Positions 11,771 to 49,230 of a stretch of 64,000 nt of DNA are shown piece by piece. Under the pieces are notes generated by a model. It ran no database searches. It was not told the origin of the DNA and saw only the letters and a program-made list of their open reading frames with translations. Each line of letters begins with the position of its first letter. Within the stretch, counting starts at the first letter, position 1. Origin of the DNA: Desulfosporosinus sp. FKB (lineage in GTDB: Bacteria > Bacillota > Desulfitobacteriia > Desulfitobacteriales > Desulfitobacteriaceae); the NCBI RefSeq assembly GCF_002196705.1, contig NZ_NADJ01000040.1, positions 248,001-312,000 of the forward strand, given 5' to 3'. Position numbers and translations under genes: made by a program.

Positions 11771-11806
11771 GGGTATTGTCTCTTAATATCATAAAAGACA
11801 ATACCC
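11771..11806 (-). terminator. GGGTAY-family hairpin ending the fdhF-hydA operon
   Basis: GGGTATTGTCT pairs perfectly with AGACAATACCC over 11 bases with a 14-base loop. It lies about 65 bases beyond the stop of the last ferredoxin gene of the operon. On the minus strand TATTTTATGG follows. Confidence 0.6.
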
Positions 11807-11871: not shown

Positions 11872-12447
11872 TCAATTCACCCGGTAGCAAGATAAGCCGC
11901 TCACACTCCGACGTCTCTTCTCTCTTGTTGCTCCTGCGATGCCATCGGAATTAACGATTCTTAAAGCATCTGTAGGACACACTTCCATACAGGCAGGTCC
12001 ACCTTGTCTTCCCAGGCACAGATCACATTTGTTCGCTACCATTTTCTCTTTAATGCAGAGCTTGCCGCTGTCATCACATTTTAATCCCGTTTGCTGCTTT
12101 TTCTCTCCGTCTTCAGAGCATGAGACCATGTCTATAGCACCAAAAGGACATGCCACAATACAGGTTTTACAGCCGATACAAGTCCTCTGATTAATATAAA
12201 TAACACCCTCCGTATTCACAATGCACCCTTCGGAACAAGCATTGGCACAAGGAGCATTTTCACAATGTCTGCACTGGATAGGAGCGCTTACAGCTGCGGT
12301 TTTTATAACACTTAGCCTGGGATTAAATTCAATTTCCCGTTGTGTCGAAGTAAACATATTCTTACTTGAATGCGCCACAACACAGGCTACTTCACAGGTT
12401 CTGCAGCCGATGCACTTATTGGGAGCTGCAACAACAAAGCTATTCAT
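11872..12447 (-). CDS. HycB/HydN-type four-cluster ferredoxin subunit (second copy)
   Basis: About 191 residues. Several CxxCxxCxxxC-type groups are visible: CIGCRTCEVAC near residue 13, CRHCENAPCANAC near 59, CIGCKTCIVACP near 90, and CDLCLGRQGGPACMEVCP near 141. These predict four [4Fe-4S] clusters, as in HycB/HydN subunits that wire formate dehydrogenase to hydrogenase. The start overlaps the hydrogenase stop (TAATG), showing translational coupling. It is a paralogue of the subunit at 13893. Two such subunits in one operon match the A. woodii hydrogen-dependent CO2 reductase. The last 30 residues are basic and variable. Confidence 0.85.
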   Translation of the reverse strand: MNSFVVAAPNKCIGCRTCEVACVVAHSSKNMFTSTQREIEFNPRLSVIKTAAVSAPIQCRHCENAPCANACSEGCIVNTEGVIYINQRTCIGCKTCIVACPFGAIDMVSCSEDGEKKQQTGLKCDDSGKLCIKEKMVANKCDLCLGRQGGPACMEVCPTDALRIVNSDGIAGATREKRRRSVSGLSCYRVN

Positions 12448-13841
12448 TAGTTCTGCCCCTTTCTTGCTACATATTCCGTATGCAATAGATGATGAGATTG
12501 ATGTCCCAAAGGTTCTCCCAAGAATTCCACATACAGTTTTTGGATATCCGGATTTTCATGAGACTTCCTTATATTCAGCTGGGAATCATGCTCATAAAGT
12601 GAAGCTTTTCTGCTCTTTGTCGCCTCTTCTCTGTACTCCGGTAAAAGAAACTTTGGCTGTCCTCCGCCGTTGATACATCCACCTGGGCAGGTCATTACCT
12701 CAATAAAGTGGAATTGGCATCTTCCTGCCTTTACATCTTCAAGGATCTTAGCAGCATTCTTTAAGCCTGAAACTACAGCAACCCTAAGTTCCAGCTCACC
12801 CGCCTGTATCATTGCAGTCCTAATACCCTCTCCGCCTCTTACAAAATTCAGTTCTAGTCTTGGGGCCGGCTTTTTAGTCATTAATTCATAACAGGTCCTC
12901 AAGGCTGCCTCCATAACTCCGCCGATTGTACCAAAGATAGCACCTGCTCCTGAATAGTTTCCTAATGGTAAATCAAAGGCTTCATCCGGCAGATTGGCAA
13001 AGTCAATTCCTCTATCCTTGATCAATTGTGCTAACTCCCTTGTTGTTAAGACGACATCCACATCCCTATAGCCGCTGTCAGCCATCTCTTCACGTGTACA
13101 TTCAAATTGTTTGCAGGTACAAGGCATGATTGCAGCGCTCAGGATTTTAGCAGGATTAATATTATCAATCTTGGCCCCATAAGTCTTGAAAATAACCCCG
13201 GACATCTGCTGAGGCGATTTACAGCTTGATAAATGAGCAAGCAATTCCGGATATTCCTGTTCAACGTATTTTACCCAAGCGGGACAGCAGGAGGTAAACA
13301 TCGGAAGATCCTTACCATCTCCCTCTGCTATCCGTTTTACAAGCTCATTGCCTTCCTCCATAATCGTTAAATCAGCTCCAAAATTTGTATCATATACACG
13401 ATCAAAGCCTAATCTTCGCAGTGCCGCGGCCATCTTACCGGGCGTGAGAGAACCGTAAGGAAAACCGAATTCTTCTGCCAGGGAAACTCTCACAGCCGGT
13501 GCACATTGCACAATTTTATAAAGTTCGGAAGAAGCTAAAGCCTCCTTTACTTGTTGAGCATGTCCTATATTATAAGCAGCAAAAAGAGGCTCCTTGACTG
13601 TTTCCAGCATATTCCTTTCCTTAAGTTTAATTGCTCTTGGTGTTATACTTTCATCAAAGATTGAAGCATAAACACTACATATCTGTACACATTGACCGCA
13701 GAAAACACAACGTTCCCTATTGATGGACTGCGGGGCATCCTTTTCCCCTTCAATAGCATTCACAGGACAAACTTCTGCACAGCGTCTGCACCCTGTACAT
13801 AATTCCCGATCTATATTAATCAAATAATCTCTGCTGACCAT
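12447..13841 (-). CDS. hydA: [FeFe] hydrogenase catalytic subunit
   Basis: About 464 residues. The N-terminus holds two [4Fe-4S] motifs (CTGCRRCAEVCP and CVFCGQCVQIC). The H-cluster follows: L1 TSCCPAW, L2 MPCTCKQFE and L3 EVMTCPGGCINGGGQP, supplying the four Cys ligands and the proton-relay Cys of TSCC. L2 has Cys where Ala is common (MPCTAK), an extra thiol near the active site. SGAGAIFG and GGVMEAALRT are also family hallmarks. The domain set, without long NADH-type modules, matches HydA2 of hydrogen-dependent CO2 reductases. It catalyses H2 oxidation or formation in the cytosol, passing electrons through the flanking HycB-like subunits. Maturases HydEFG are not in the window. Confidence 0.92.
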   Translation of the reverse strand: MVSRDYLINIDRELCTGCRRCAEVCPVNAIEGEKDAPQSINRERCVFCGQCVQICSVYASIFDESITPRAIKLKERNMLETVKEPLFAAYNIGHAQQVKEALASSELYKIVQCAPAVRVSLAEEFGFPYGSLTPGKMAAALRRLGFDRVYDTNFGADLTIMEEGNELVKRIAEGDGKDLPMFTSCCPAWVKYVEQEYPELLAHLSSCKSPQQMSGVIFKTYGAKIDNINPAKILSAAIMPCTCKQFECTREEMADSGYRDVDVVLTTRELAQLIKDRGIDFANLPDEAFDLPLGNYSGAGAIFGTIGGVMEAALRTCYELMTKKPAPRLELNFVRGGEGIRTAMIQAGELELRVAVVSGLKNAAKILEDVKAGRCQFHFIEVMTCPGGCINGGGQPKFLLPEYREEATKSRKASLYEHDSQLNIRKSHENPDIQKLYVEFLGEPLGHQSHHLLHTEYVARKGQN

Positions 13842-13892
13842 CGTTATTTTTCCCTTCCCTTAGCTGCAAATTATCCCTTACAGTTTACGCCG

Positions 13893-14471
13893 CTATTTTA
13901 ATGCTGCCAGAAGATTTACAGCGGCCTGACGGTTTCGCCGCTTTTTTTCTTCTGCAGGTATTACCAGAGTTAAAGCTTGCTGCGGACAAGCAGCAACACA
14001 TGCCGGCTCACCATGTTCTTGACATAAATCACACTTATAGGCAACGGTTTTAGCCTTTTCTTCGAGACCAAACTCGCCTTCCTCTTTCAGGTTGGCCTGA
14101 ATTACAGCTTCACCGTCCTTGAACTGCGGCAATAAATCTATAGCCCCAAAAGGACAAGCGAGCAGACATGTTTTGCAGCCGATACATTCATTCTCGTCTA
14201 TTACAATCCTATTGTCCTCCTGCTTAATCGCTCCAATGCGGCAGGAATTCGCACAGGGTGCATCTTCACAGTGCCGGCATTGAATAGGCATCTTAAGGAC
14301 TTCACTCCGGACCAGGTATAACCTTGGAATGATCGGAGCTGCTATAGTTCCCACAGCCATCGCCACTTGATCTTTCTTGTCATGAACTGCAAAGCAAACC
14401 ATTTCACAAACTTTACAACCGATGCATTTAGTTGGATTTGCCACTACAAATGAATTTAAAGTTCCGCTCAT
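13893..14471 (-). CDS. HycB/HydN-type four-cluster ferredoxin subunit
   Basis: About 192 residues with Cys groups CIGCKVCEMVC, CRHCEDAPCANSC, CIGCKTCLLACP and CDLCQEHGEPACVAACP, predicting four [4Fe-4S] clusters. It lies between fdhF (85 bases upstream) and hydA (51 bases downstream), all co-oriented. In hydrogen-dependent CO2 reductases and formate hydrogenlyase, such proteins pass electrons between the formate dehydrogenase and hydrogenase subunits. It is similar to the subunit at 11872, including the order of the Cys groups, so the two arose by duplication. Confidence 0.87.
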   Translation of the reverse strand: MSGTLNSFVVANPTKCIGCKVCEMVCFAVHDKKDQVAMAVGTIAAPIIPRLYLVRSEVLKMPIQCRHCEDAPCANSCRIGAIKQEDNRIVIDENECIGCKTCLLACPFGAIDLLPQFKDGEAVIQANLKEEGEFGLEEKAKTVAYKCDLCQEHGEPACVAACPQQALTLVIPAEEKKRRNRQAAVNLLAALK

Positions 14472-14555
14472 CTTGCCTCGACCTTTCCTCTGCCATCTTT
14501 AACCTTTTATCCAATCATACGACTCACACTTCTCCAAGCGGGAGTGGTTCCGAGT

Positions 14556-16712
14556 TCACTCTTTGTCCCTTGAAAGGAGTGTATTTACACCCATCTGTTT
14601 CCTTAATTTATCGTATTCGTCTCTTACGTGCTGCTCCGCCCATGCTTGGTCCTTAATTCGTTCCACTTTAACAGCGCAATACTTAAATTCAGGGGTTTTG
14701 GTAATCGGATCAACATGATCACTCGTCAATTCATTGCAGGCTCCAATCCACCACTGATAGGTCATATAGGTTGCACCTTTTTTCACTCTCTCTGTTACAA
14801 GAGCCCTGGCCATAACACTTCCTCTGCGCGAACTGATTCTTATCAGCTCCTGATCTTTAATATTAAGTTCTTCAGCGTCTTCGACACTCAGTTGTACATA
14901 TCCGGGTTCATCTGCAAGCTGCTGCAGAGCGCGGCAGTTTCCCGTCATCGTTCTGACAGAGTAATGGCCAACCTCCCGTACCGTTGACAGGCTCAGGGGA
15001 AATTCCTCATCTGCCAGTTCCAGAGGAGGTCTCCAGTCACAGGCAAATAGTTGTCCTTTTCCATTGGGCGTTGAAAATTGATTGCCTTCATATAAATAGG
15101 GAGTTCCGGTATGCTCCTCTGTTGGACATGGCCATTGAATGCTTCCCAATTCATCCAAGCGCTGATAACTTGCCCCTGCAAAACTTGGGCAGAGACCTCT
15201 CATCTCGTCCCATATTTCTTCGGTATCCTTATACTTCATCTCATACCCCATGGCCGTGGCTATTTCACATATAATCTGCCAATCAGGTTTGCATTCTCCC
15301 TTAGGTTCCACTGCTTTTTTGAATCTTTGGAAACCGCGGTCAGCAGAGGAATATACCCCTTCATGTTCTCCCCAGGAGGTAGCCGGCAGTATAACATCGG
15401 CGTGAAGCGCCGTCTTGTTCATAAAAATATCCTGCACAATGACCAGCTCCATCTTATCAAGGACTTCTCTTACCTCACCGGCATTAGGATCACTCTGTAC
15501 AGGATCCTCTCCCATGATGTAATACGCTTTAACCTTATCCTTATGGAGCACCAAATGAGGAATTTCCGTAAGCTTATAGCCGATCCGCCCGGATAATTTT
15601 ACTCCCCAGGCCTTTTCAAATTTCCTCCGTGCTTTGGCATCCGTCACCGCTTGGTAACCCGGAAAGACATCAGGAAGCGTTCCCATGTCACATGTTCCCT
15701 GAACGTTATTTTGCCCTCTTACAGGACCAATTCCCACATTCGCCCTGCCCAAATTACCCGTCAGCAGGACCAGAGAGGCCAATCCCCTGACAACGTCGAC
15801 AGCCTGAGAGAATTGACAAACGCCCATTCCATAGAGAATCATAGCGTTTTTCGCTCCGGCATATTCTCTCATCGCTTTTCTTATATCATCTGCCTTAACA
15901 CCGGTGATTGTCTCAGCATATTCAGGAGTGTATTTAGCCACCGCAGTTTTATACTCTTCAAGACCTTCAGTATACTTACTCACATATTCCTTGTCATACA
16001 GCGCTTCATTAATCAGGACATTACCGCAGGCATTAACTAAAGCCATATTGGTACCTCCTTTTAAGGGAAGCCACAAATCTGCAATCCTTACGGATTCAGT
16101 TATTCTGGGATCCACGACAATAACCTTGGCCCCTTTTTCCTTGGCCTTAATGATTCGCCGGGCAACAATCGGATGAGAGTCCGCCCCGTTGTAGCCGAAT
16201 ATCAGCAATAAATCTGCATTTTCTATCTCGGGGATAGAATTAGACATTGCACCATTACCTAATGACTGGGCCAGACCGGCCACAGAAGGAGCGTGTCAAA
16301 CTCTGGCGCAGTGGTCGATGTTATTGGTGCCAATCACAGCCCTCATGAACTTCTGCATGACATAATTCGCTTCGTTTCCGGCTCCTCGCGCTGAACCGGT
16401 ACCCATAATAGCATCCGGGCCGTATTTCTTTTTAATTTCAGTGATCTTCCCTGCAACAAATCCTATGGCTTCCTGCCAAGAAACTTCTTCTAATTTCCCA
16501 TTTTTTTTGATAAGCGGTTTTTTTAACCTTGAGGTCAAGATTTGAGGATCATTCAGGAAATCCCATCCATAGTAACCCTTTAGACATAGGTTTCCTTCAT
16601 TGGTTCTGCCATCGGCAGCCTCAGCTCTGATTACTTGCCCATCCTCAACAACAAGATACAACTTACATCCTGTACCACAATAAGGGCAGACTGTTAATAC
16701 TTTTTTCCCCAT
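14556..16712 (-). CDS. fdhF: Formate dehydrogenase, selenocysteine-containing (in-frame UGA at 16296-16298)
   Basis: Read through one TGA, this is a single protein of about 718 residues, close to E. coli FdhF (715). The N-terminus has the [4Fe-4S] motif CPYCGTGC with the fourth Cys in GNLCLKG. The TGA is codon 139, in the context DHCARV-U-HAPSVAGL, matching Sec140-His141 of FdhF. Downstream are molybdopterin-binding stretches (IFGYNGADSHPI, GPVRGQNNVQG, MGEDPVQSDPN). Without readthrough the catalytic residue and 80% of the protein would be lost. It reduces CO2 to formate, or oxidises formate, at a bis-MGD Mo/W centre in the cytosol; no Tat signal is present. It is the first gene of the four-gene operon, with AAAGGAG before the ATG. 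Confidence 0.95.
16264..16298 (-). promoter_or_regulatory. Bacterial SECIS element at the fdhF UGA
   Basis: Directly after the TGA codon, the minus strand can fold so that GGCC pairs with GGCC around a GGUCU loop, about 17 bases downstream of the UGA. E. coli fdhF has a GGUCU apical loop at the same distance, where SelB binds. The surrounding codons still read as the conserved HAPSVAGLAQS, so the hairpin is embedded in coding sequence. Confidence 0.85.
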
Positions 16713-16815
16713 GTTTTCTTCTCCTTTTAGATAGTTATCAAAGCCCGGCTAGATATAATTTCCGCTCGGACCTTGAATAAAGCAACAGTTAATTCGTATA
16801 AGCAATAAAAACAAA

Positions 16816-16857
16816 AAACCAGTACAAAGCGTATTAAAACGCAACTGTACTGGTTTA
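16816..16857 (-). terminator. Terminator of DUF2294 gene
   Basis: AACCAGTACA pairs with TGTACTGGTT, with an inner GCGT/ACGC stem. On the minus strand a TTTTTTGTTTTTATTGC tract follows. It separates the DUF2294 gene from fdhF. Confidence 0.7.
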
Positions 16858-16880
16858 TTTAAAAGCTAAAAAGTTTTATT

Positions 16881-17255
16881 TCAAACCTTTTTCTTTTCAA
16901 TCGAACCATCGGCTATTAACTTTAGAAATAAAGCAATCGTTCTGTCGGAACTTTCCAGGTTATTAATTTGCCAAGTATATTCAAAATTCCTGCCTATTAA
17001 TTCATAAACTTCTTCTGCAAATTGATTTTCCAGATAAGGCCTCAAGGTTTTCCAATATTCTTTGACCCGATCAACGTCGCCCTGTTCGACTAAGATTTCA
17101 GATAGATTTGAAAGAATCCCCTTAATAGTTATAGTTATCAATTCATCGTCTATTCTTACTATAACATACTCGGGGCCCTTTCCTCTATAGTGTTTCACTA
17201 TTTTTACGGCTAATTTTCTAATTTTCTCCTGCATTTCAGGGCTTTTGTCGAACAT
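16881..17255 (-). CDS. DUF2294 (MpsC-like) family protein
   Basis: About 124 residues, soluble. The pattern HYRGKGPEYVIVRIDDELITITIKGILSNLSEILVEQG near the N-terminus (residues 22-60) resembles DUF2294/MpsC-type proteins, found alone or in fusions in Clostridia, cyanobacteria and staphylococci (there in the MpsABC system). Molecular function is not established for stand-alone members. It lies just upstream of fdhF on the same strand, but a strong terminator lies between them, so cotranscription is unlikely. GAGGTG precedes the ATG. Confidence 0.65.
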   Translation of the reverse strand: MFDKSPEMQEKIRKLAVKIVKHYRGKGPEYVIVRIDDELITITIKGILSNLSEILVEQGDVDRVKEYWKTLRPYLENQFAEEVYELIGRNFEYTWQINNLESSDRTIALFLKLIADGSIEKKKV

Positions 17256-17424
17256 AACGATGACACCTCAACTAGCAACCTAGGTAAAGAATGATGAATA
17301 GATTCCATACAGCATTTAGGAGGTTGACTACTCATATTACAACATTCTACACTATACAATAGAGTTCGACAAGTTGCTCAGTATAAGGCAATGTCTCTTG
17401 ATATCCCTTCTTGCAATATTACCT

Positions 17425-18747
17425 TTATAATTCGTTTTGCCACCGAAAATCACTAGGATAAATTAAATCTAATTTGAGTTCCCGCAAATATTTGCCATCA
17501 TTACGTTCTTCCATAACATTTGAGGAAATAACTACCTCTATATCAATACCTTTAAGAAAATCGATGTCTTTTACATTGAACTCCAAAAAGTCATAGCATT
17601 TGCTAAGATTATAAGTTTTAATGTGATTTCTATCTAAAACCTGTTTGACAGTTAAAATATCTTTACCGAATACCTTAGCAGATTTGTAATAATGATCTTT
17701 TCTCGATAAGTAATAATAACTTTCAACACGCTGCCCAAGGTTTTGTTGATAAATTTGTCCAGTCAGCTTATTTTCAAGCGAACAGTAATGAACTCCTAAC
17801 TTAAGATGTTGTTCAACCGCATATTCCAGCAGATCAAGACATTCTAATTCACTTCTATCTATCGGCAGACCTCCGGCATACCAATAATCGTACAGCACAT
17901 TAAAAGGTGGATTTTTAATTTCAAATCCTCTGCTGCGAAATTCCCCAGCATTATAGAAAGGATAGCAAAACTCCAATAAATTAATACCGTTAATGTCCAG
18001 ATCATTTAAGCGAGATAATAATTTTTTCATTTCCTCTAAAGTTCCCGGAATTATCGGCATCTCAACCATGACAACAGGAATATACGATTTAGCTAATGCG
18101 ATATAATCGAGAACCCGGCTGCGTACTTCTTCAGGATCTTCCAGCTTAAGACTAAAGCGAATTTCATTCAGTCCATTTTCTCGAAGTACTCCTAATAAAT
18201 CCGGATTGAGAAGATCCCCAGCTGTGTAGAGTCGCGTATAGACCTTAGGAAATAATTCTAGCGCTGTTTGGAAAAAGTTGACGACTTCGACTGGATAAAG
18301 CAGTGGTTCTCCCCCGGATAAAGCTAAGTGTGAAATTTTTATTCCTTGTTGGTGAATTTCCTGTAATTCTTGGACACAGTTTCTCAGATTCTGACGATAA
18401 TATTCATATCCCTCTTGGTTAGGATTAAAACAAAAATAGCATTGACGCGGGCACTGAAGAGAAAAAAACAGGGTTGTCGATCCCACTCCAGTCTTACAAT
18501 TCTCACAAGCAGGTGACAACCAATTAAGGAAAAGGCTTTTATCATCGTTACGGAAGACTACACCCAAATCTCGCAATCGTTCGATTTTATGACTTATCTC
18601 TTTTTCTTGATTAGAGCCTAATTTAACACCAGAGGCAGTAATTTGAGTCAGAAATCTTTTGTAGATATCGCGATAGATCTGTGCATAACGAAGCAGACTT
18701 GAATTCTTAATAATTACATCTTGTTCATTATAGAGATTAATAAGCAT
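17425..18747 (-). CDS. Radical SAM protein of unknown substrate
   Basis: About 440 residues. The cluster-binding motif CPRQCYFC (CX3CX2C) lies near residue 110, followed by HLALSGGEPLLYP, the GGE motif that binds S-adenosylmethionine, and a TIM-barrel-like region (VMVEMPIIPGT, LEFCYPF). A preceding CENCKTG pair of cysteines near residue 90 may bind another metal. The N-terminal 80 residues and the C-terminal 130 residues match nothing I know. There is no adjacent precursor peptide gene to suggest RiPP maturation. ATG at 18747 is chosen because AAAGG is 7 bases upstream; the frame opens further. The fold is certain, the reaction unknown. Confidence 0.8.
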   Translation of the reverse strand: MLINLYNEQDVIIKNSSLLRYAQIYRDIYKRFLTQITASGVKLGSNQEKEISHKIERLRDLGVVFRNDDKSLFLNWLSPACENCKTGVGSTTLFFSLQCPRQCYFCFNPNQEGYEYYRQNLRNCVQELQEIHQQGIKISHLALSGGEPLLYPVEVVNFFQTALELFPKVYTRLYTAGDLLNPDLLGVLRENGLNEIRFSLKLEDPEEVRSRVLDYIALAKSYIPVVMVEMPIIPGTLEEMKKLLSRLNDLDINGINLLEFCYPFYNAGEFRSRGFEIKNPPFNVLYDYWYAGGLPIDRSELECLDLLEYAVEQHLKLGVHYCSLENKLTGQIYQQNLGQRVESYYYLSRKDHYYKSAKVFGKDILTVKQVLDRNHIKTYNLSKCYDFLEFNVKDIDFLKGIDIEVVISSNVMEERNDGKYLRELKLDLIYPSDFRWQNEL

Positions 18748-18946
18748 TTCTTTACCTTTCTTGATACATAAGATCATGCCATTTATGAAAGCTTAGCTGA
18801 TACTCAGTTGTTAGCTGGACACTCTTATCTTCTAATTAAAACAGCTCCTAAATTTACACTTAAGCAACCAGAAACCCGTAGTGTCTTCAAAAGGGGATAG
18901 GTAAAAACTTATCTCTAAAAATCAAACATGAGTGCAAAAAGCCAAA

Positions 18947-19013: not shown

Positions 19014-19889
19014 TCACTTTAAGCCAATCATTATTGATACTGCGGATCCGTAAAATACATAGCGGCCTACAAATTCTCCGACTGCGATCAGAGCCAGTGA
19101 ACCGTAAACCCATTTCTGGATGGGTACCTTATTCCTAGTTTGTTTTAATGCATAGTAAAGCAAACCTGCTCCAACAAGAGATATAAGCCCTCTTAGAATT
19201 AAGGGGAATAGATAGCTTCCCGTAAGAAGCTGGGCTGAGGCCACTGAGGCCATATCACCGCTGTCAAGGCTGCGAATAAAAACTGGCAGATATATCAGAG
19301 GGAGAATAACCGCAGCCCCGGTTATTAAGCTGATTTTCTTTAAATGTGCTGCGACTTTTTCGGAAAGTTGCATCCCTTTTCCTCCATATATAACTAAGGC
19401 AACACATCCTGCACTTCCCAAAGCCAACGTAGCTCCAAAAAAGGCAACATACGTATCAGCATTCATCCAAGCTGGACGGACCGAATGGCTATAAATATTC
19501 GACATACTCAAAACAGCTGCCAAGCCAACCAGTGAAGTAATCCATCCTAAAGCACTGCTCGCCTTCTCCTTTTGAAAGGCTTGATAACTGATAAAGGATA
19601 AAACAAGAAACCCTCCGGCAGTTAAAATTTCACGACTAAGCCAGGATGTTTTCAAGTTAAGAATAGAGCGATAGGCTCCTGTTGGTGTTCCTAAGTGGAA
19701 GAGAGAAAGGACAAGGGCAACGACCATAATTCCCACAACCGCTTTGAAGCCTGGCTGGGTTAATTTTGCTGCCTCTTGAGGATTTTGCTTCAATAATAAA
19801 GAGCGAACCACCATTAACATCAGAAAACTTCCAATGGCCAATTGGCTAACGAGCGTAAACATCATCAAAGGCCATTCTTGAGCAAACAT
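19014..19889 (-). CDS. dmsC: DMSO-reductase-type membrane anchor subunit
   Basis: About 291 residues with eight or nine hydrophobic helices, the size and layout of DmsC, which anchors DmsAB and passes quinol electrons to it. An early conserved region (LSLFHLGTPTGAYRSILNLKTSWLSRE, around residues 60-90) holds the His and Lys/Trp-Ser features typical of DmsC. It follows dmsB by 35 bases and ends the torD-dmsABC unit. AAGGAGG precedes the ATG. Confidence 0.88.
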   Translation of the reverse strand: MFAQEWPLMMFTLVSQLAIGSFLMLMVVRSLLLKQNPQEAAKLTQPGFKAVVGIMVVALVLSLFHLGTPTGAYRSILNLKTSWLSREILTAGGFLVLSFISYQAFQKEKASSALGWITSLVGLAAVLSMSNIYSHSVRPAWMNADTYVAFFGATLALGSAGCVALVIYGGKGMQLSEKVAAHLKKISLITGAAVILPLIYLPVFIRSLDSGDMASVASAQLLTGSYLFPLILRGLISLVGAGLLYYALKQTRNKVPIQKWVYGSLALIAVGEFVGRYVFYGSAVSIMIGLK

Positions 19890-19924
19890 GAAATAGGCCT
19901 CCTTCCATAATTTTTAGTTCTTCG

Positions 19925-20476
19925 CTATTTCATCGCTTCTTTATTCGCCTTAATGGTTAACGATGGATGGGTTATACCAGAGTCAGGCAAGGGTTTAATA
20001 TCCGCATTATTTCCGTATTTTTTTCGCAGTTCCTCAATATCGCCGAATTGCAAAGCTCTCATCTGGCAAGCATCGACACAAGCAGGGTTTTGGCCCTTAT
20101 CAATGAGGTCAGCGCAAAAAGTGCACTTACCCACCTTACCCAACTTCTCTATATACTGTGGTTCTCCATACGGGCAAGACCATGTACAGAGTTTACAACC
20201 GATACATTTATCGCGGTCGTGCATAACAATGCCGTCCTTCTCTCTCTTATACAGAGCTCCGGTCGGACAGTTCTGGGTACACTTAGGCTGAGCACAATGG
20301 TTACAAGCAATTGAAAGGTTATATTCCCAAGGATTCGGGTATTTGCCGCCTTCAAAATTGTAAACCTTGCGGAAAAAAATTCCGGCATCGAGATCATTTT
20401 TATCTTTACAAGCAATCTGACAAACCTTGCAGCCAGAGCAAATTGTCATATCATAATAAAACCCGAGTTGCGCCAT
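19925..20476 (-). CDS. dmsB: DMSO-reductase-type iron-sulfur subunit
   Basis: About 183 residues, the size of DmsB-type subunits, with four Cys groups: CSGCKVCQIAC, CNHCAQPKCTQNCP, CIGCKLCTWSCP and CTFCADLIDKGQNPACVDAC. These predict four [4Fe-4S] clusters that carry electrons from the anchor to the molybdenum subunit. It lies 14 bases after dmsA. AAGGAAG precedes the ATG. Confidence 0.9.
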   Translation of the reverse strand: MAQLGFYYDMTICSGCKVCQIACKDKNDLDAGIFFRKVYNFEGGKYPNPWEYNLSIACNHCAQPKCTQNCPTGALYKREKDGIVMHDRDKCIGCKLCTWSCPYGEPQYIEKLGKVGKCTFCADLIDKGQNPACVDACQMRALQFGDIEELRKKYGNNADIKPLPDSGITHPSLTIKANKEAMK

Positions 20477-20490
20477 TATTTTTCACTTCC

Positions 20491-23046
20491 TTAGAAAATG
20501 ATTCGTTGAGGCCATTTAACATCCGGATCGAGAGGTTGGTTATATTTCTCGAGCTTCACATTGCAAGAATTAAAGCCAGTATGCCCTTGACCGGTTGGGA
20601 TATGTCCGTCAAGAATTCCCGTACAGCCGGCTTTATCAACTCCGGCTTGCTCATCCATTTCCACCCAGGCACCTTCGCCAAGCGCAACGACACCTGGCAT
20701 AATACGCTCAGTGACCATAGCCTGACGAATAACTGAGCCATGACGGCTGGTTACTTTGACAATATCATTATTTTTAATTCCTAGTTTTTGAGCGTCACTG
20801 GCATTGATTCTCAGTTCCTGAGGAAAGGCTTCCCGCAGCCAGAGTACATTATCTAAGGTCGAATGAGACCTCCGATAGTAATGAAGAGTAATGACTTGGA
20901 AAGGATAACCGTTCTTAGCACCATCTTCATAGCCCTCACGCGAAGGTTCGTACTTAGGTAAAGGTGATTTCGTCGTAAAACCTACTTTTTCAATGGCCTT
21001 AGCGAGAGAGTCACAATAAATCTCAAATTTTCCGCTTGGAGTTGCTAATTTCTTGCCAACCGGATCGCCAATAAAGTCCTCAAAACTTGTAAATTCCAAT
21101 TTGTCGCCGCGAGACCTCGGAATTTGATAAATCCCCTTTTCTTTGAACTCCTTATAGGAGATGCGTCCCGTTTGCGGGGTTCCTTTCGCTCCCAATTCCT
21201 TGATATCTTCCGCCGTCAAGGTGACTAACTTTTCATAACCCGTTCCGTCTGCCTTCATCACCTTAGCGCCAGCTATCTGGTTATACAGCATTTGCGCTTC
21301 AGACAACGGGTTGATCGCCTTCGTTGGATTAATCCCCAGCCTTTTAGCCAATTCCGTTGCAATCCACATATCACTTTTGGCTTCAAAAAGCGGCTTCATG
21401 ATTTGACGAAAATAAATAAGAATTTCACGATTCCCGGTAAGCAATCCCCCCAGACGCTCCCACTGCGAGGTAACCGGTAAAACAACATCTGAATACCGGG
21501 CGTCCGTCGATAAGAATAGGTTTTGCGCAAGGACGAATTCAACTTTACGGTGTGCCTCAATACCCCGTGTGGTCCCCGCTCTCTGGTTCAAGGTATTCCC
21601 AAACCAATTCCAAACCATTTGGATATTGATATTTTTCTGGACACCTTTACTTGCAGTATATTTACCTGTGAAAACGGCGTTCCACATTTCACCACTATTA
21701 ATTTTACTTTTCGCTAGAGGATTGGGAATCGCAGGCAAGCCGCTGGCCCCAGGTTGTACTAACACCGGTCCGGCATTTGTTGCCCGATTGTGCATATTAG
21801 GGCTAACTCCTGCACCAGGTTTGCCAACATTACCTGTCATAAAGGCAAGGGTCATTATCGCATGGGGAAAATGCTCTCCATTGTTTATGCGGGCGGGTGC
21901 TCCACCAGTAATAATAGCTGCAGGTTTTGTCGTTGCATATTCCTGAGCAAGTTGACGGATCTTATCCGCACTTACACCACAAATCTTGGCTGCCCACTCC
22001 GGTGTTTTCGGGGTTCCATCAAAAGTACCCAAAACATAATCTTTAAAGTTATCCTTGGGATCTGCCCCATCCGGCATATGATCTGCATCAAAGCCCACAC
22101 AATAAGTATCCAAAAAGTCTATATCCAGTAAATTATTCGTTAAAATATGATGGGCCATCCCCAGAACTAATGTTGTATCAGTAGCCGGGTGAATCGGTAT
22201 CCATTCATCTGCCATAACTCTCGCTGTTTCAGAATGGACAGGATCAATCAAAATAAATTTGGCTCCTGCCTTTTTGGCCTGTAGATAATTAAACGTTGGC
22301 GTTCCCTGACTGGACTGAGCAGGGTTTGCACCCCAAAGAAAAATCAGTTTTGAATCGCGCAATCTGAAGCGATCGTTGCCGGCCATCGATCCATTATCGG
22401 TTGTGATGCCCGTGACCTTTTGCCATACTACAGGCCAGGCTCCCCAAGAAACATCTCCCCAACGAGTTGTACAGCCGCCATAGGCACTCATGAGCCGAAT
22501 AGGTTCCATGTCCCCTCCTGAACCGCCAGGGGGTAAAAAGAAACTGGCATTACCATATTTTTCTTTAATTCGTTTAATCTCACTAGCAACGATATCCAGG
22601 GCTTCGTCCCAAGAGATACGCACCCACTCATCTTTTCCGCGAAGTTCTTTTTTGCCGCCTCCCGGTTCCCAATTTTTCCGTTTCATCGGATATTTGAGGC
22701 GATCGGCGCCCAGTACCATCTTGCGATGAGAACGACCGCGTGCACATCCTCTTTGTTGAGGGTAATCCGGACTGTCCTCATGGGTATCGTCCGTCTTTTG
22801 ACGAACGACAACTCCATCCGCAACATAAGCCTTGTTTAAACAGCGTCCTCCACAATTATGCCAACAAGCAGCAGTAATCCACTCACCCTCCTTATCAGCT
22901 AACTCTGCAACACTTGAATCCACTTTTTGCAGCCCGCAGCCCGGCAGGGTTACAGCTGCTGCAGCTCCGGCAGCCAATGTTGCCGTTGCACCGAGAAAGG
23001 ACCTTCTGCTCATTATGTGGCTTTTTGCCTTCTCGATTAAACTCAT
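20491..23046 (-). CDS. dmsA: DMSO-reductase-family molybdopterin oxidoreductase, Tat-exported
   Basis: About 851 residues. The N-terminus has a twin-arginine signal (SRRSFLGATATLAAGAAAA) followed by a Cys-containing LPGC, so it is exported folded. The [4Fe-4S] ligands are CWHNCGGRC and the later RGCARG. The region GGCTTRWGDVSWG likely provides the Ser Mo ligand typical of DMSO reductase-type enzymes. Molybdopterin-binding stretches (FLWGANPAQS, ILIDPVHS, TGGAPARINNG) are evident. ATG at 23046 is preferred over an upstream GTG. Substrate (DMSO, TMAO, another S- or N-oxide, or another oxyanion) cannot be read from sequence. Partner genes dmsB, dmsC and torD are adjacent. Confidence 0.9.
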   Translation of the reverse strand: MSLIEKAKSHIMSRRSFLGATATLAAGAAAAVTLPGCGLQKVDSSVAELADKEGEWITAACWHNCGGRCLNKAYVADGVVVRQKTDDTHEDSPDYPQQRGCARGRSHRKMVLGADRLKYPMKRKNWEPGGGKKELRGKDEWVRISWDEALDIVASEIKRIKEKYGNASFFLPPGGSGGDMEPIRLMSAYGGCTTRWGDVSWGAWPVVWQKVTGITTDNGSMAGNDRFRLRDSKLIFLWGANPAQSSQGTPTFNYLQAKKAGAKFILIDPVHSETARVMADEWIPIHPATDTTLVLGMAHHILTNNLLDIDFLDTYCVGFDADHMPDGADPKDNFKDYVLGTFDGTPKTPEWAAKICGVSADKIRQLAQEYATTKPAAIITGGAPARINNGEHFPHAIMTLAFMTGNVGKPGAGVSPNMHNRATNAGPVLVQPGASGLPAIPNPLAKSKINSGEMWNAVFTGKYTASKGVQKNINIQMVWNWFGNTLNQRAGTTRGIEAHRKVEFVLAQNLFLSTDARYSDVVLPVTSQWERLGGLLTGNREILIYFRQIMKPLFEAKSDMWIATELAKRLGINPTKAINPLSEAQMLYNQIAGAKVMKADGTGYEKLVTLTAEDIKELGAKGTPQTGRISYKEFKEKGIYQIPRSRGDKLEFTSFEDFIGDPVGKKLATPSGKFEIYCDSLAKAIEKVGFTTKSPLPKYEPSREGYEDGAKNGYPFQVITLHYYRRSHSTLDNVLWLREAFPQELRINASDAQKLGIKNNDIVKVTSRHGSVIRQAMVTERIMPGVVALGEGAWVEMDEQAGVDKAGCTGILDGHIPTGQGHTGFNSCNVKLEKYNQPLDPDVKWPQRIIF

Positions 23047-23076
23047 ATTTTCCACCCCCACGAATTGTAAGAAATA

Positions 23077-23769
23077 CTAAGAATTTATTGTTAAAAGCTC
23101 GAGAAGAGCTTCTAGATCAAGAGTTAAGAAGCCTTGAAGAATTTTGCCCATTCCCTGATAGAAATCCGTCTCGGCGTGCTGGATCATGTCTTGACTGAAC
23201 TTTGGAACCCATTGCAAAAGATGCTCTTCTAAAAAAGACTTTTGATCTATCAAGAGTTGTCTGAGATCAACGCCATTTTGATCGTTATCCTCTAAACATA
23301 GTTCACTGAGCCGGAACATAAAATCCAACTCTAGTCCTAAGTGATCATCTGCCTCATGACCAAACTCTACAGGAAGAAACGAATACTTTAGATAAGCCTT
23401 CCTAACGGCTAGCGTCTCCTTCTGAAAGAGCAAACGCTCCTCGTTTAAATAAGTGGATTCCCAGGGCGGAGAAGGTAATTGATACGGACCGATAAAAAGC
23501 CGAGTGTATTCCCAATGCAAATCATTGCAAACAGTTTCGCTCTGTATATCGTTTTTAGAAAGGTAGTCTTTTATTTGTTGAACACCTTCTAAAATCATTC
23601 CACTTTCACTTGCCAAAGGAAAATCCGGTGCGATCATGCTATTTTTCACAAATACAAGGAAATCTTTTGTAGGTTCCATTAAGAAAGTACGGCGCAGAAA
23701 ATCGTAGTAAAAAAGACGCAACTCCAGTAATGGAGTCACTCGACTTGATGCATGATTCACTTTTGTCAT
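23077..23769 (-). CDS. TorD/DmsD-family molybdoenzyme chaperone
   Basis: About 230 residues, helical and soluble. The family motifs EYTRLFIGPYQLPSPPWESTY and EADDHLGLELDFM are present near the middle. TorD-like proteins bind the Tat signal of the molybdoenzyme precursor and protect it until the cofactor is inserted. It is the first gene of the unit, 30 bases before dmsA, which fits that role. CTAAGGAG precedes the ATG. Confidence 0.9.
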   Translation of the reverse strand: MTKVNHASSRVTPLLELRLFYYDFLRRTFLMEPTKDFLVFVKNSMIAPDFPLASESGMILEGVQQIKDYLSKNDIQSETVCNDLHWEYTRLFIGPYQLPSPPWESTYLNEERLLFQKETLAVRKAYLKYSFLPVEFGHEADDHLGLELDFMFRLSELCLEDNDQNGVDLRQLLIDQKSFLEEHLLQWVPKFSQDMIQHAETDFYQGMGKILQGFLTLDLEALLELLTINS

Positions 23770-47523: not shown

Positions 47524-49230
47524 CTAAAACATAAAGTAGCGCTGAGCCAGAGGCAGGACTTCAAGGGGTTCACAAGTCAGGTTCTCTCCGTCGGCAGTCA
47601 CTTGATACGTTTCAGGGTCCACTGATATCTGCGGTGTCGCCGAGTTATGCTTCATATCGGCCTTGCCAATATTGCGGCAGTTCTTCACCGGAACAAGCTG
47701 TTTGGCCAGTTTTAACTCTCTGGCCAGTTTTTCTGAATCCGCTGCCCGAGATATAAACGTTAAGGAACAGGCGGCGATTGCTTGCCCAAAAGAAGCAAAC
47801 ATCGGCCGTTGGATCACCGGCTGAGGTGTGGGAATGGAAGCATTGGCATCGCCCATAGCGGCATACATAATAAATCCGCCCTTGATCACCATACTTGGTT
47901 TTACCCCAAAAAACTTCGGATTCCAAAGTACCAGGTCCGCTAATTTACCCTTTTCAACCGAGCCTACCAGATGACTGATTCCGTGGGTGAGGGCGGGATT
48001 AATGGTGTATTTGCTAATATAGCGTTTTATCCGGTTGTTATCATTCTCTCCGCTCTCAGATTCTAAAAAACCCCTCTGCAGCTTCATCTTATGGGCCGTT
48101 TGCCAGGTTCTGATGATCACTTCGCCAACCCGCCCCATGGCCTGAGAATCTGAAGACATCATGGAAATGACACCCAGATCATGTAAAATATCCTCGGCAG
48201 CAATGGTTTCCGGCCGGATGCGGGAATCAGCAAAAGCGATATCTTCCGGAACTCGTTTATCGAGATGATGGCATACCATGAGCATATCGAGATGTTCTTC
48301 CAGGGTATTCACCGAAAACGGCCGGGTAGGATTTGTTGAAGATGGCAGGACATTAGGCAACGAGGCTACTTTAATGATATCCGGAGCATGGCCTCCTCCC
48401 GCTCCCTCGGTATGAAAGGTATGGATCGTACGCCCGCCAATGGCAGCAATGGTATCTTCGACAAATCCGGCTTCATTCAGGGTATCCGTATGAATAGCGA
48501 CCTGAATATCATAGTCATCGGCAACTTTCAGGCAGCAATCAATAGCGGCAGGTGTTGATCCCCAGTCCTCGTGCAGTTTGAGGCCCATGGCCCCGGCGTT
48601 TACTTGGGCTATCAAAGGTTCGGGCAGCGAATTATTCCCTTTCCCGAAAAATCCCATATTAATTGGAAAGGCTTCAGCAGCCTGCAGCATCCGGTACATA
48701 TTCCATTCCCCCGGCGTACAGGTCGTAGCATTCGTTCCGGCTGCCGGGCCGGTCCCGCCTCCTAGCATGGTTGTAACGCCGGAAGCAATGGCCGTTTCAA
48801 CTTGCTGCGGAGAAATAAAATGAATATGGCTGTCAATTCCGCCTGCCGTAACGATAGAGTTTTCTCCGGCAATCACCTCGGTCCCAGCCCCAATCGGCAG
48901 GTTAACTCCAGCCATTGTTTTAGGATTTCCTGCACGGCCCAAGCCATAAATCCGACCTTTCTTAATCCCAATGTCAGCCTTGATAATACCCCAATGGTCG
49001 ATAACTACGGCATTGGTGATAACTACGTCCATAGCCTCGTTCAAGGCTTGAGGGTCCTGACCCATCCCATCGCGAATAACCTTCCCACCGCCAAATTTGG
49101 CTTCATCACCGGGGCTGGTCAAATCATCTTCTACTTCCAACCACAATTCCGTATCTGCCAAACGAATTTTATCGCCAGTGGTTGGTCCATACATATCGGC
49201 ATGCTGACGGCGGGTCATATTCAATGTCAC
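47524..49230 (-). CDS. ureC: Urease alpha (catalytic) subunit
   Basis: About 568 residues. All active-site pieces are visible: [11 protein letters not shown] (His pair), [10 protein letters not shown] (carbamylated Lys), [10 protein letters not shown] and [15 protein letters not shown] (nickel His), the flap [13 protein letters not shown] (Cys-His-His) and [11 protein letters not shown] (nickel Asp). It hydrolyses urea to ammonia and carbamate in the cytosol. A GTG at 49230 has GAGGAGG 9 bases upstream and gives the usual length; an upstream start at 49248 is less likely. Confidence 0.97.

Follow-up and report, generated by a model that had tools for sequence, protein, structure and literature searches.

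The closest described relatives of the system reported here are the hydrogen-dependent CO2 reductase (HDCR) of Thermoanaerobacter kivui (PDB 7qv7), the formate hydrogenlyase (FHL) of Escherichia coli (FdhF plus Hyc) and the CbFdh/Hyd enzyme of Clostridium beijerinckii NCIMB 8052. According to the accessible part of its description, the last was purified as a tetramer with both FHL and H2-dependent CO2 reductase activity, at nearly equal rates in the two directions (PMC12905484). We analyzed a stretch of 64,000 nucleotides from Desulfosporosinus sp. FKB (contig NZ_NADJ01000040.1, positions 248,001 to 312,000), referred to below as the window, in which fdhF, hycB1, hydA and hycB2 form one compact minus-strand operon (16712-11872). 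On the basis of sequence comparison, the operon very probably encodes a soluble HDCR-kind complex in which four subunits combine formate dehydrogenase and [FeFe] hydrogenase, and its expression is likely gated by transcription attenuation at an RNA element located between fdhF and an upstream mpsC-like gene.

The operon begins with fdhF (14556..16712; 718 aa), followed after 84 nt by hycB1 (13893..14471; 192 aa) and after a further 51 nt by hydA (12447..13841; 464 aa), which shares one base with hycB2 (11872..12447; 191 aa) in an ATGA overlap. The first-pass annotation had proposed this fdhF-hycB-hydA-hycB order, and all four genes were recovered in place, on the minus strand. Its description of two four-cluster ferredoxin subunits agrees with the four cysteine clusters read from the sequence of each HycB, and its claim that NAD-, quinone- and membrane-linked subunits are absent holds for the operon, within which no NAD(P), quinone, membrane or electron-bifurcating subunit was found. 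HydA, the [FeFe] hydrogenase catalytic subunit, carries two N-terminal [4Fe4S] motifs together with TSCCP, MPCTCK and TCPGGC, likewise read from sequence. FdhF was identified as a formate dehydrogenase (FDH) by TIGR01591 (912 bits over a cut-off of 666), and the selenocysteine (Sec) claimed for it corresponds to an in-frame UGA at codon 139 (16296..16298, minus strand; context HCARV-U-HAPSV), aligned with the Sec of E. coli FDH-H. Because the fold of the single window sequence as a Sec insertion sequence (SECIS) was not significant (z -0.52), spacing and loop were compared instead. A bacterial SECIS-like apical loop GGUCU lies exactly 18 nt past the UGA in all nine Sec genes compared, E. coli fdhF included, and is absent from all three Cys-type genes compared. 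With an in-frame UGA at the Mo-ligand position and a bacterial SECIS-like loop, fdhF has both features of a Sec-containing FDH gene.

The relationships of the subunits were examined by scores and trees, using 80 HydA loci of which 35 (L012-L045, L053) were compared in detail, the rest being 45-48% identical in HydA. HydA gave 790 bits to T. kivui HDCR HydA2 (E=5e-237), the next solved structure reaching 404. The phylogeny suggested as a check of the first-pass annotation placed T. kivui HydA2 inside the clade of the window protein, with the branching within that clade left unresolved, and grouped the window HydA with that of C. beijerinckii, apart from the outgroup hydrogenases used. HycB1 is of the HycB4 type by score (280 bits to T. 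kivui HycB4 versus 139 to HycB3) and by tree, where HycB4 falls inside the window's clade and HycB3 outside. HycB2, the second four-cluster ferredoxin subunit, gave 156 bits to HycB4, 133 to HycB3 and 111 to E. coli HycB. FdhF is closer to E. coli FDH-H (1028 bits, E=0) than to T. kivui FdhF (746 bits); in its tree T. kivui FdhF lies outside the window's clade, and the grouping partner is Clostridium sp. OS1-26 (support 99/98). These trees flag long branches, include no Acetobacterium woodii sequence and omit L019, L020 and L023 (near-duplicates or cut off). The L2 motif MPCTCKQ, which had been called unusual, is real and ordinary: MPCTC occurs in 20 of the 26 HydA sequences compared and in T. 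kivui, and it was dropped as an oddity.

Compared with the T. kivui HDCR, the operon has the same subunit set, an HDCR-clade HydA with the MPCTC motif, an FDH subunit and two four-cluster HycB proteins, one of them of the HycB4 type. It differs in a FdhF that contains Sec and belongs to the FDH-H lineage and in a HycB2 that resembles HycB4 at least as much as HycB3; the two systems have the HydA-HycB4 pair in common and not the FdhF-HycB pair. The subunit set proposed by the first-pass annotation is present, with HydA and HycB1 of the T. kivui type and FdhF and HycB2 of other types. All four subunits have counterparts in C. beijerinckii HUN142 (77/52/67/61% identical), with mpsC and the RNA element also preceding fdhF. 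The C. beijerinckii FdhF carries Cys where the window protein has Sec, and genes for maturation factors separate fdhF from hycB in that species; the window operon contains no such genes. With E. coli FHL the operon shares the FdhF lineage and the SECIS spacing, but it encodes an [FeFe] rather than a [NiFe] hydrogenase and lacks the membrane arm. It is the scores of HydA, HycB1 and FdhF, together with the four C. beijerinckii counterparts of a purified tetramer, that lead us to an HDCR-kind complex. From the mixed relationships we infer that the FdhF-HycB and HydA-HycB halves may be exchangeable separately. Among the compared loci, HDCR-type genes were also seen in metagenome-assembled genomes (MAGs) named Deltaproteobacteria and Candidatus Adiutrix (L031, L032), with fdhF and hycB2 of L031 on the strand opposite to hycB1-hydA, and in a Bacillota MAG a second fdhF-like gene, in three pieces, precedes the intact fdhF (L027:2246-4153).

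The host belongs to a genus in which Desulfosporosinus acididurans (M1) carries copies that are 96/89/91/90% identical in the same gene order. D. acididurans, which is acidophilic and reduces sulfate, possesses the reductive acetyl-CoA pathway and uses it to grow on H2/CO2 plus sulfate (PMC4541271). HydA of this type (E<=1e-150) was found in 2/45 genomes of the family and 5/398 of the phylum sample, the host genome being counted in both, so that the operon is rare in its family. The block was most probably acquired horizontally; the HydA tree does not resolve a grouping with Clostridium sp. OS1-26. A probable H2/formate enzyme outside the acetogens, as anticipated by the first-pass annotation, is borne out by a Desulfosporosinus host with a sulfate-reducing sister species; the novelty is not, CbFdh/Hyd having already been characterized, as the available text of its report describes (PMC12905484). 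The enzyme is a further member of a known complex type, with subunits of mixed lineage, and HDCR/FHL enzymes outside acetogens are already known. In the complex, HydA would split or make H2, the two HycB subunits would relay electrons via their [4Fe4S] clusters, and the Sec-containing FdhF would interconvert CO2 and formate, giving a net H2 + CO2 <-> formate exchange without an outside carrier. Two formyltetrahydrofolate synthetase genes in the host genome were counted in favor of such a complex, which would most likely feed or drain a formate pool tied to the Wood-Ljungdahl pathway.

Whether the enzyme makes or splits formate cannot be read from its sequence. A physiological role as a soluble FHL (formate -> H2 + CO2) rather than a CO2 reductase is a serious possibility, which we hold at somewhat less than even confidence. 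The FDH-H lineage of FdhF points in that direction, as do three pyruvate formate-lyase (PFL)-like genes in the host genome, although these may encode genuine PFL or glycyl radical enzymes of another kind. Relatives among Paenibacillus and the solventogenic Clostridium species live by fermentation, which also counts toward formate splitting. The near-equal rates of the C. beijerinckii enzyme, as given in the accessible part of its report (PMC12905484), are compatible with this role, whereas the growth of the sister species on H2/CO2 plus sulfate via the reductive acetyl-CoA pathway (PMC4541271) argues for CO2 reduction. It could further be proposed that HydA serves ferredoxin and FdhF another partner without forming a single complex, as the host genome contains five other PF02906 hydrogenase matches (one weak) and two further FDHs over the family cut-off. 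However, the gene set and order match the purified tetramer, and we consider separate partners highly improbable.

Upstream of the operon, the first-pass annotation had overlooked an mpsC-like gene (16881..17255, minus strand; 124 aa) and the RNA element (16809..16909, minus strand). The closest described system with such a gene is mpsABC of Staphylococcus aureus, for which the accessible parts of the reports describe a dispensable mpsC, a weak terminator between mpsC and mpsAB, and lowered mpsA expression at 5% CO2 (PMC6689103; PMC8552792); the mpsC-mpsAB neighborhood is reported there for staphylococci only (PMC6689103). The window protein belongs to the same family, PF10057/DUF2294 (44.9 bits over a Pfam cut-off of 23), and its gene also has a terminator beside it, but it accompanies an FDH gene. 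The staphylococcal data fit in part a regulatory, carbon-linked role, without demonstrating one. In the host genome the gene is the sole PF10057 match at E<=0.001, and it is probably the first gene of the transcription unit. No match to MpsC was found on plasmids, and a structure model (pLDDT 79) gave unrelated proteins as its best matches both in Foldseek (E 0.017) and in VIA (Z 7.9), so no fold was assigned. A c-di-AMP riboswitch (Rfam RF00379, 104.8 bits) was observed upstream of a DUF2294 gene in another genome of the phylum (L107:1266-1397).

The association of mpsC with the enzyme recurs. Of 25 named loci with HDCR-type HydA, 14 have mpsC upstream of fdhF, in Desulfosporosinus, Clostridium, Paenibacillus and one MAG, and strong matches (E<1e-29), one copy each, occur in 12 of the 20 genomes bearing such a HydA. 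A search covered 206 Clostridiaceae genomes, from the family to which Clostridium sp. OS1-26 belongs; 18 of them have an mpsC match (E<=1e-8) and 32 an HDCR-type HydA (E<=1e-150). Every one of the 15 strong mpsC matches (E<=1e-29) comes from a genome that also has HDCR-type HydA, and 14 immediately precede fdhF; the three weaker ones (E 3e-17 to 9e-14) come from genomes without HDCR-type HydA.

Transcription attenuators and riboswitches, as a kind, use mutually exclusive antiterminator and terminator structures that share one strand. The attenuator-like RNA of the window, which overlaps the last codons and stop of mpsC, is predicted to be built alike, with one strand common to both folds. In it GGUU-nG-AUU is followed by a stem of 5 bp, a small internal loop of purines and a second stem, and then by AAU-AA-RCCAGUAC (AAU-AA-ACC-AGUAC in the window), the 5' arm of a terminator-like hairpin with a U run after it. 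RNA polymerase would run through mpsC into this leader, which would fold either as an antiterminator, in which GGUU and AACC pair to enclose a hairpin bearing purine internal loops, or as a terminator, in which AACCAGUAC pairs with GUACUGGUU ahead of the U run. Because GGUU can pair with AACC, or by wobble AGCC, of the terminator arm, the two structures would exclude each other; this pairing is available in all 20 rows of alignment A5. Both partners have changed in 16 of the 27 pairs of that alignment, 95.6% of its cells are paired, and covariation is 0.374 versus 0.220 in shuffles (0/500 as high). In Paenibacillus a G/C-rich stem replaces the A/U-rich stem while the loop stays similar. Alignments A2 (18 rows), A5 (20 rows) and A7 (22 rows) each hold a selection of the elements, and A5 omits weak and long-first-loop elements; model R2, built from A5, gives the window element 96.3 bits, that element being part of its training set. 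In contrast to the described attenuators and riboswitches, no Rfam 15 family reaches its gathering score over the element in the window or at 17 other loci, and the sub-threshold matches to the window element fall far below gathering. No published description was found among the matches listed from the open-licence literature.

In order to describe the wider occurrence of the RNA, the 206 Clostridiaceae genomes were searched with R1, a model built from 18 elements; 30 of them contained a match at E<=0.01, with 31 matches listed. All 19 matches at E<=1e-5 lie beside fdhF or an mpsC homolog. Thirteen are between mpsC and fdhF; four (L199-L202) precede fdhF at 25, 61, ~360 and ~450 nt with no mpsC within the 3-kb locus, two of them before an FDH just 47-48% identical; and two are beside mpsC homologs without fdhF. 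Six of the 19 (L199-L204) are outside the training set; the other 13 were found in genomes used for training or in ones near to them. Where the RNA precedes a lone fdhF, three of the four genomes involved contain no mpsC match at E<=1e-8, and hence an MpsC of the window's subfamily is not needed beside the RNA. The 12 weaker matches comprise one behind a lone mpsC (G546), one in front of moeA and ten that appear unrelated by eye. The match before moeA (L206) was dropped as support, since it scores like those before unrelated genes (R1, 42.5 bits versus 43.9 for L205 and 41.4 for L207; R2, 40.3 versus 40.7 for L205, 40.8 for L207 and 38.5 for L212). In the third genome with a weaker mpsC match (L155), the element lies just 3' of mpsC (R2 36.6 bits, E 2e-4).

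The RNA also accompanies more distant DUF2294 genes. R2 was run over 30 distant-PF10057 loci and 36 other loci, mostly from other taxa, and gave at E<=1 18 matches in the former (~100 kb) versus 1 in the latter (~510 kb), with 12 of the 18 on the same strand and within ~160 nt 3' of the DUF2294 gene. A hold-out set of 60 DUF2294 loci, hand-picked, mostly one per genome and including several close relatives (L229, L231-L233, L235), gave 39 matches. Of these, 24 lay on the same strand within ~160 nt 3' of the gene, and the ten best were all within that distance. Because these matches score low, at 18-40 bits, and a terminator is common after a gene in any case, the structure of the distant elements was examined. 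Alignment A7 contains 22 of them; it was fitted to R2 and thus leans towards that model, and four rows are not 3' of mpsC (L112 and the second matches in L265, L266 and L236). Both-sided changes were found in 24 of its 27 pairs, with covariation of 0.680 versus 0.231 in shuffles. The antiterminator strand varies with the terminator arm (GUUGGA/UCCAAC, UUGGC/GCCAA, UCGGC/GCCGG, GUUGGU/ACCAAC), and a strand-swap test gave a mixed result, with p 0.001 for 14 hand-picked distant elements and p 0.08 for 18 hold-out elements. Additionally, an upstream strand predicted to pair with the 5' arm (P>=0.5) was found for 14 of the 16 terminators lying up to 220 nt 3' of a distant mpsC gene, compared to 26 of 48 other terminators (Fisher p 0.015, a weak control). 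Control of the HDCR/FHL-type enzyme probably runs through an attenuator that DUF2294 genes also have.

Several points weigh against this combined interpretation. FdhF and the second HycB are not of the T. kivui type, a feature that is not strictly defining because the C. beijerinckii FdhF and HycB2 group with those of the window. In the set of elements before FDH genes one strand of the antiterminator is invariant, leaving the helix without covariation support there, and a simple terminator scan of the window missed the hairpin of the element. HDCR loci that lack mpsC (Tepidibacter, Romboutsia, C. senegalense, C. frigidicarnis, Sporomusa) also lack the RNA, and eleven other Mo-enzyme stretches of the host genome gave no convincing RNA and one weak match (26.5 bits). 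A promoter between the hairpin and fdhF could bypass the leader.

The element might be nothing but an mpsC terminator with a conserved 3' end, with fdhF expressed from its own promoter and not attenuated. It does end in a terminator-like hairpin, two mpsC homologs carry it without a nearby fdhF (L203, L141), and S. aureus mpsC is likewise parted from mpsAB by a weak terminator, as stated in the accessible portion of that report (PMC6689103). However, the RNA occurs 25-450 nt before fdhF without an intervening mpsC at L199-L202, and an ordinary terminator needs neither a conserved upstream hairpin nor an alternative partner strand, which makes this explanation unlikely in our view. MpsC might instead be an assembly or structural partner of the enzyme, unconnected with the RNA, as could be argued from the HDCR-type HydA in 15/15 Clostridiaceae genomes with a close mpsC versus 32/206 overall and from the placement of 14 of these 15 genes directly upstream of fdhF. 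We regard such a role as rather doubtful, since many HDCR-type operons have no mpsC and the RNA is also found 3' of distant DUF2294 genes beside unrelated genes. Taken as a whole, an HDCR-kind complex with attenuated expression is the best explanation of the locus, and we hold it with good confidence.

The genes downstream of DUF2294 were also examined in 90 loci, 88 of which have a downstream ORF, with families tested for representatives and extended by blastp. Carboxylation or inorganic-carbon genes are among the next two genes in 16 of the 88: phosphoenolpyruvate (PEP) carboxylase in four, PurE and/or PurK in four, and biotin carboxylase, an SbtA-type bicarbonate transporter, PEP carboxykinase (PEPCK) and an epsilon-like subunit of carbon monoxide dehydrogenase/acetyl-CoA synthase (CODH/ACS) in two each. 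Four further loci have FdhD (2), an FDH-like enzyme (1) or a formate/nitrite transporter (1). Such carbon genes are found upstream of DUF2294 in 3/87 loci. The RNA was detected 3' of mpsC at, for example, 3/4 PEP carboxylase loci, 4/4 PurE/PurK loci, one PEPCK locus and one SbtA locus, and was not detected there at the biotin carboxylase loci. The gene categories were picked after the downstream genes had been seen, which counts against a carbon theme. Zinc alcohol dehydrogenases (15/88 loci) fit the theme poorly, neither supporting nor excluding it, chemotaxis receptors recognized by eye (six loci) also fit poorly, and DUF4914 (eight loci) neither supports nor excludes it. As a tentative extension, which we consider possible rather than likely, the RNA could represent a large unrecognized class of DUF2294-tied attenuators tuning carboxylating and CO2/formate genes (HDCR/FDH, PEP carboxylase, PEPCK, biotin carboxylase, PurE/PurK, SbtA and a CODH/ACS subunit) to inorganic carbon or formate, through either an anion riboswitch or DUF2294 acting as an RNA-binding sensor.

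Two of these downstream families recur in their own right. DUF4914 follows DUF2294 and the RNA at L228, L229, L231-L233, L235, L130 and L132, with an unknown protein of ~141 aa coming first in six cases. Zinc alcohol dehydrogenases follow DUF2294 at L256-L263, L267-L269, L282-L284 and L286, several of these loci having an RNA variant with AA/GG internal loops (by eye).

Other features of the window are as follows. A promoter-like site upstream of mpsC (17344..17372, minus strand; 9/12 consensus matches) is weak, given 22 such sites in the window versus 17.2 +/- 5.2 in shuffles, and so is a terminator-like hairpin of 15 pairs closing the operon 3' of hycB2 (11771..11806, minus strand), with 4 such sites versus a mean of 5.8 in shuffles. 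The next gene past hycB2 encodes a membrane protein (11647-10730) without a Pfam match. Upstream of mpsC, a gene at 17425-18777 (minus strand) encodes a 450-aa radical SAM protein below every NCBIfam cut-off; it has no match at the D. acididurans locus, where other genes precede mpsC. Adjoining the HDCR operon, 19014-23769 (minus strand) contains a Mo-oxidoreductase operon (names by eye) with an 856-aa catalytic subunit, FeS and membrane subunits and a TorD-like protein. Finally, an Rfam 5_ureB_sRNA match (48792-49075, plus strand; 80.9 bits), antisense to a 574-aa urease alpha-like ORF, may reflect coding conservation alone.

These results extend the host range of H2/CO2-formate complexes to a sulfate-reducing genus and suggest that the FdhF-HycB and HydA-HycB halves of such complexes can have separate histories. 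If the leader is a real switch, it would offer a testable function for DUF2294, which in S. aureus is a dispensable neighbor of a bicarbonate transporter, and it would be a candidate for RNA-level control of inorganic-carbon use, for which no precedent was found among the matches listed.

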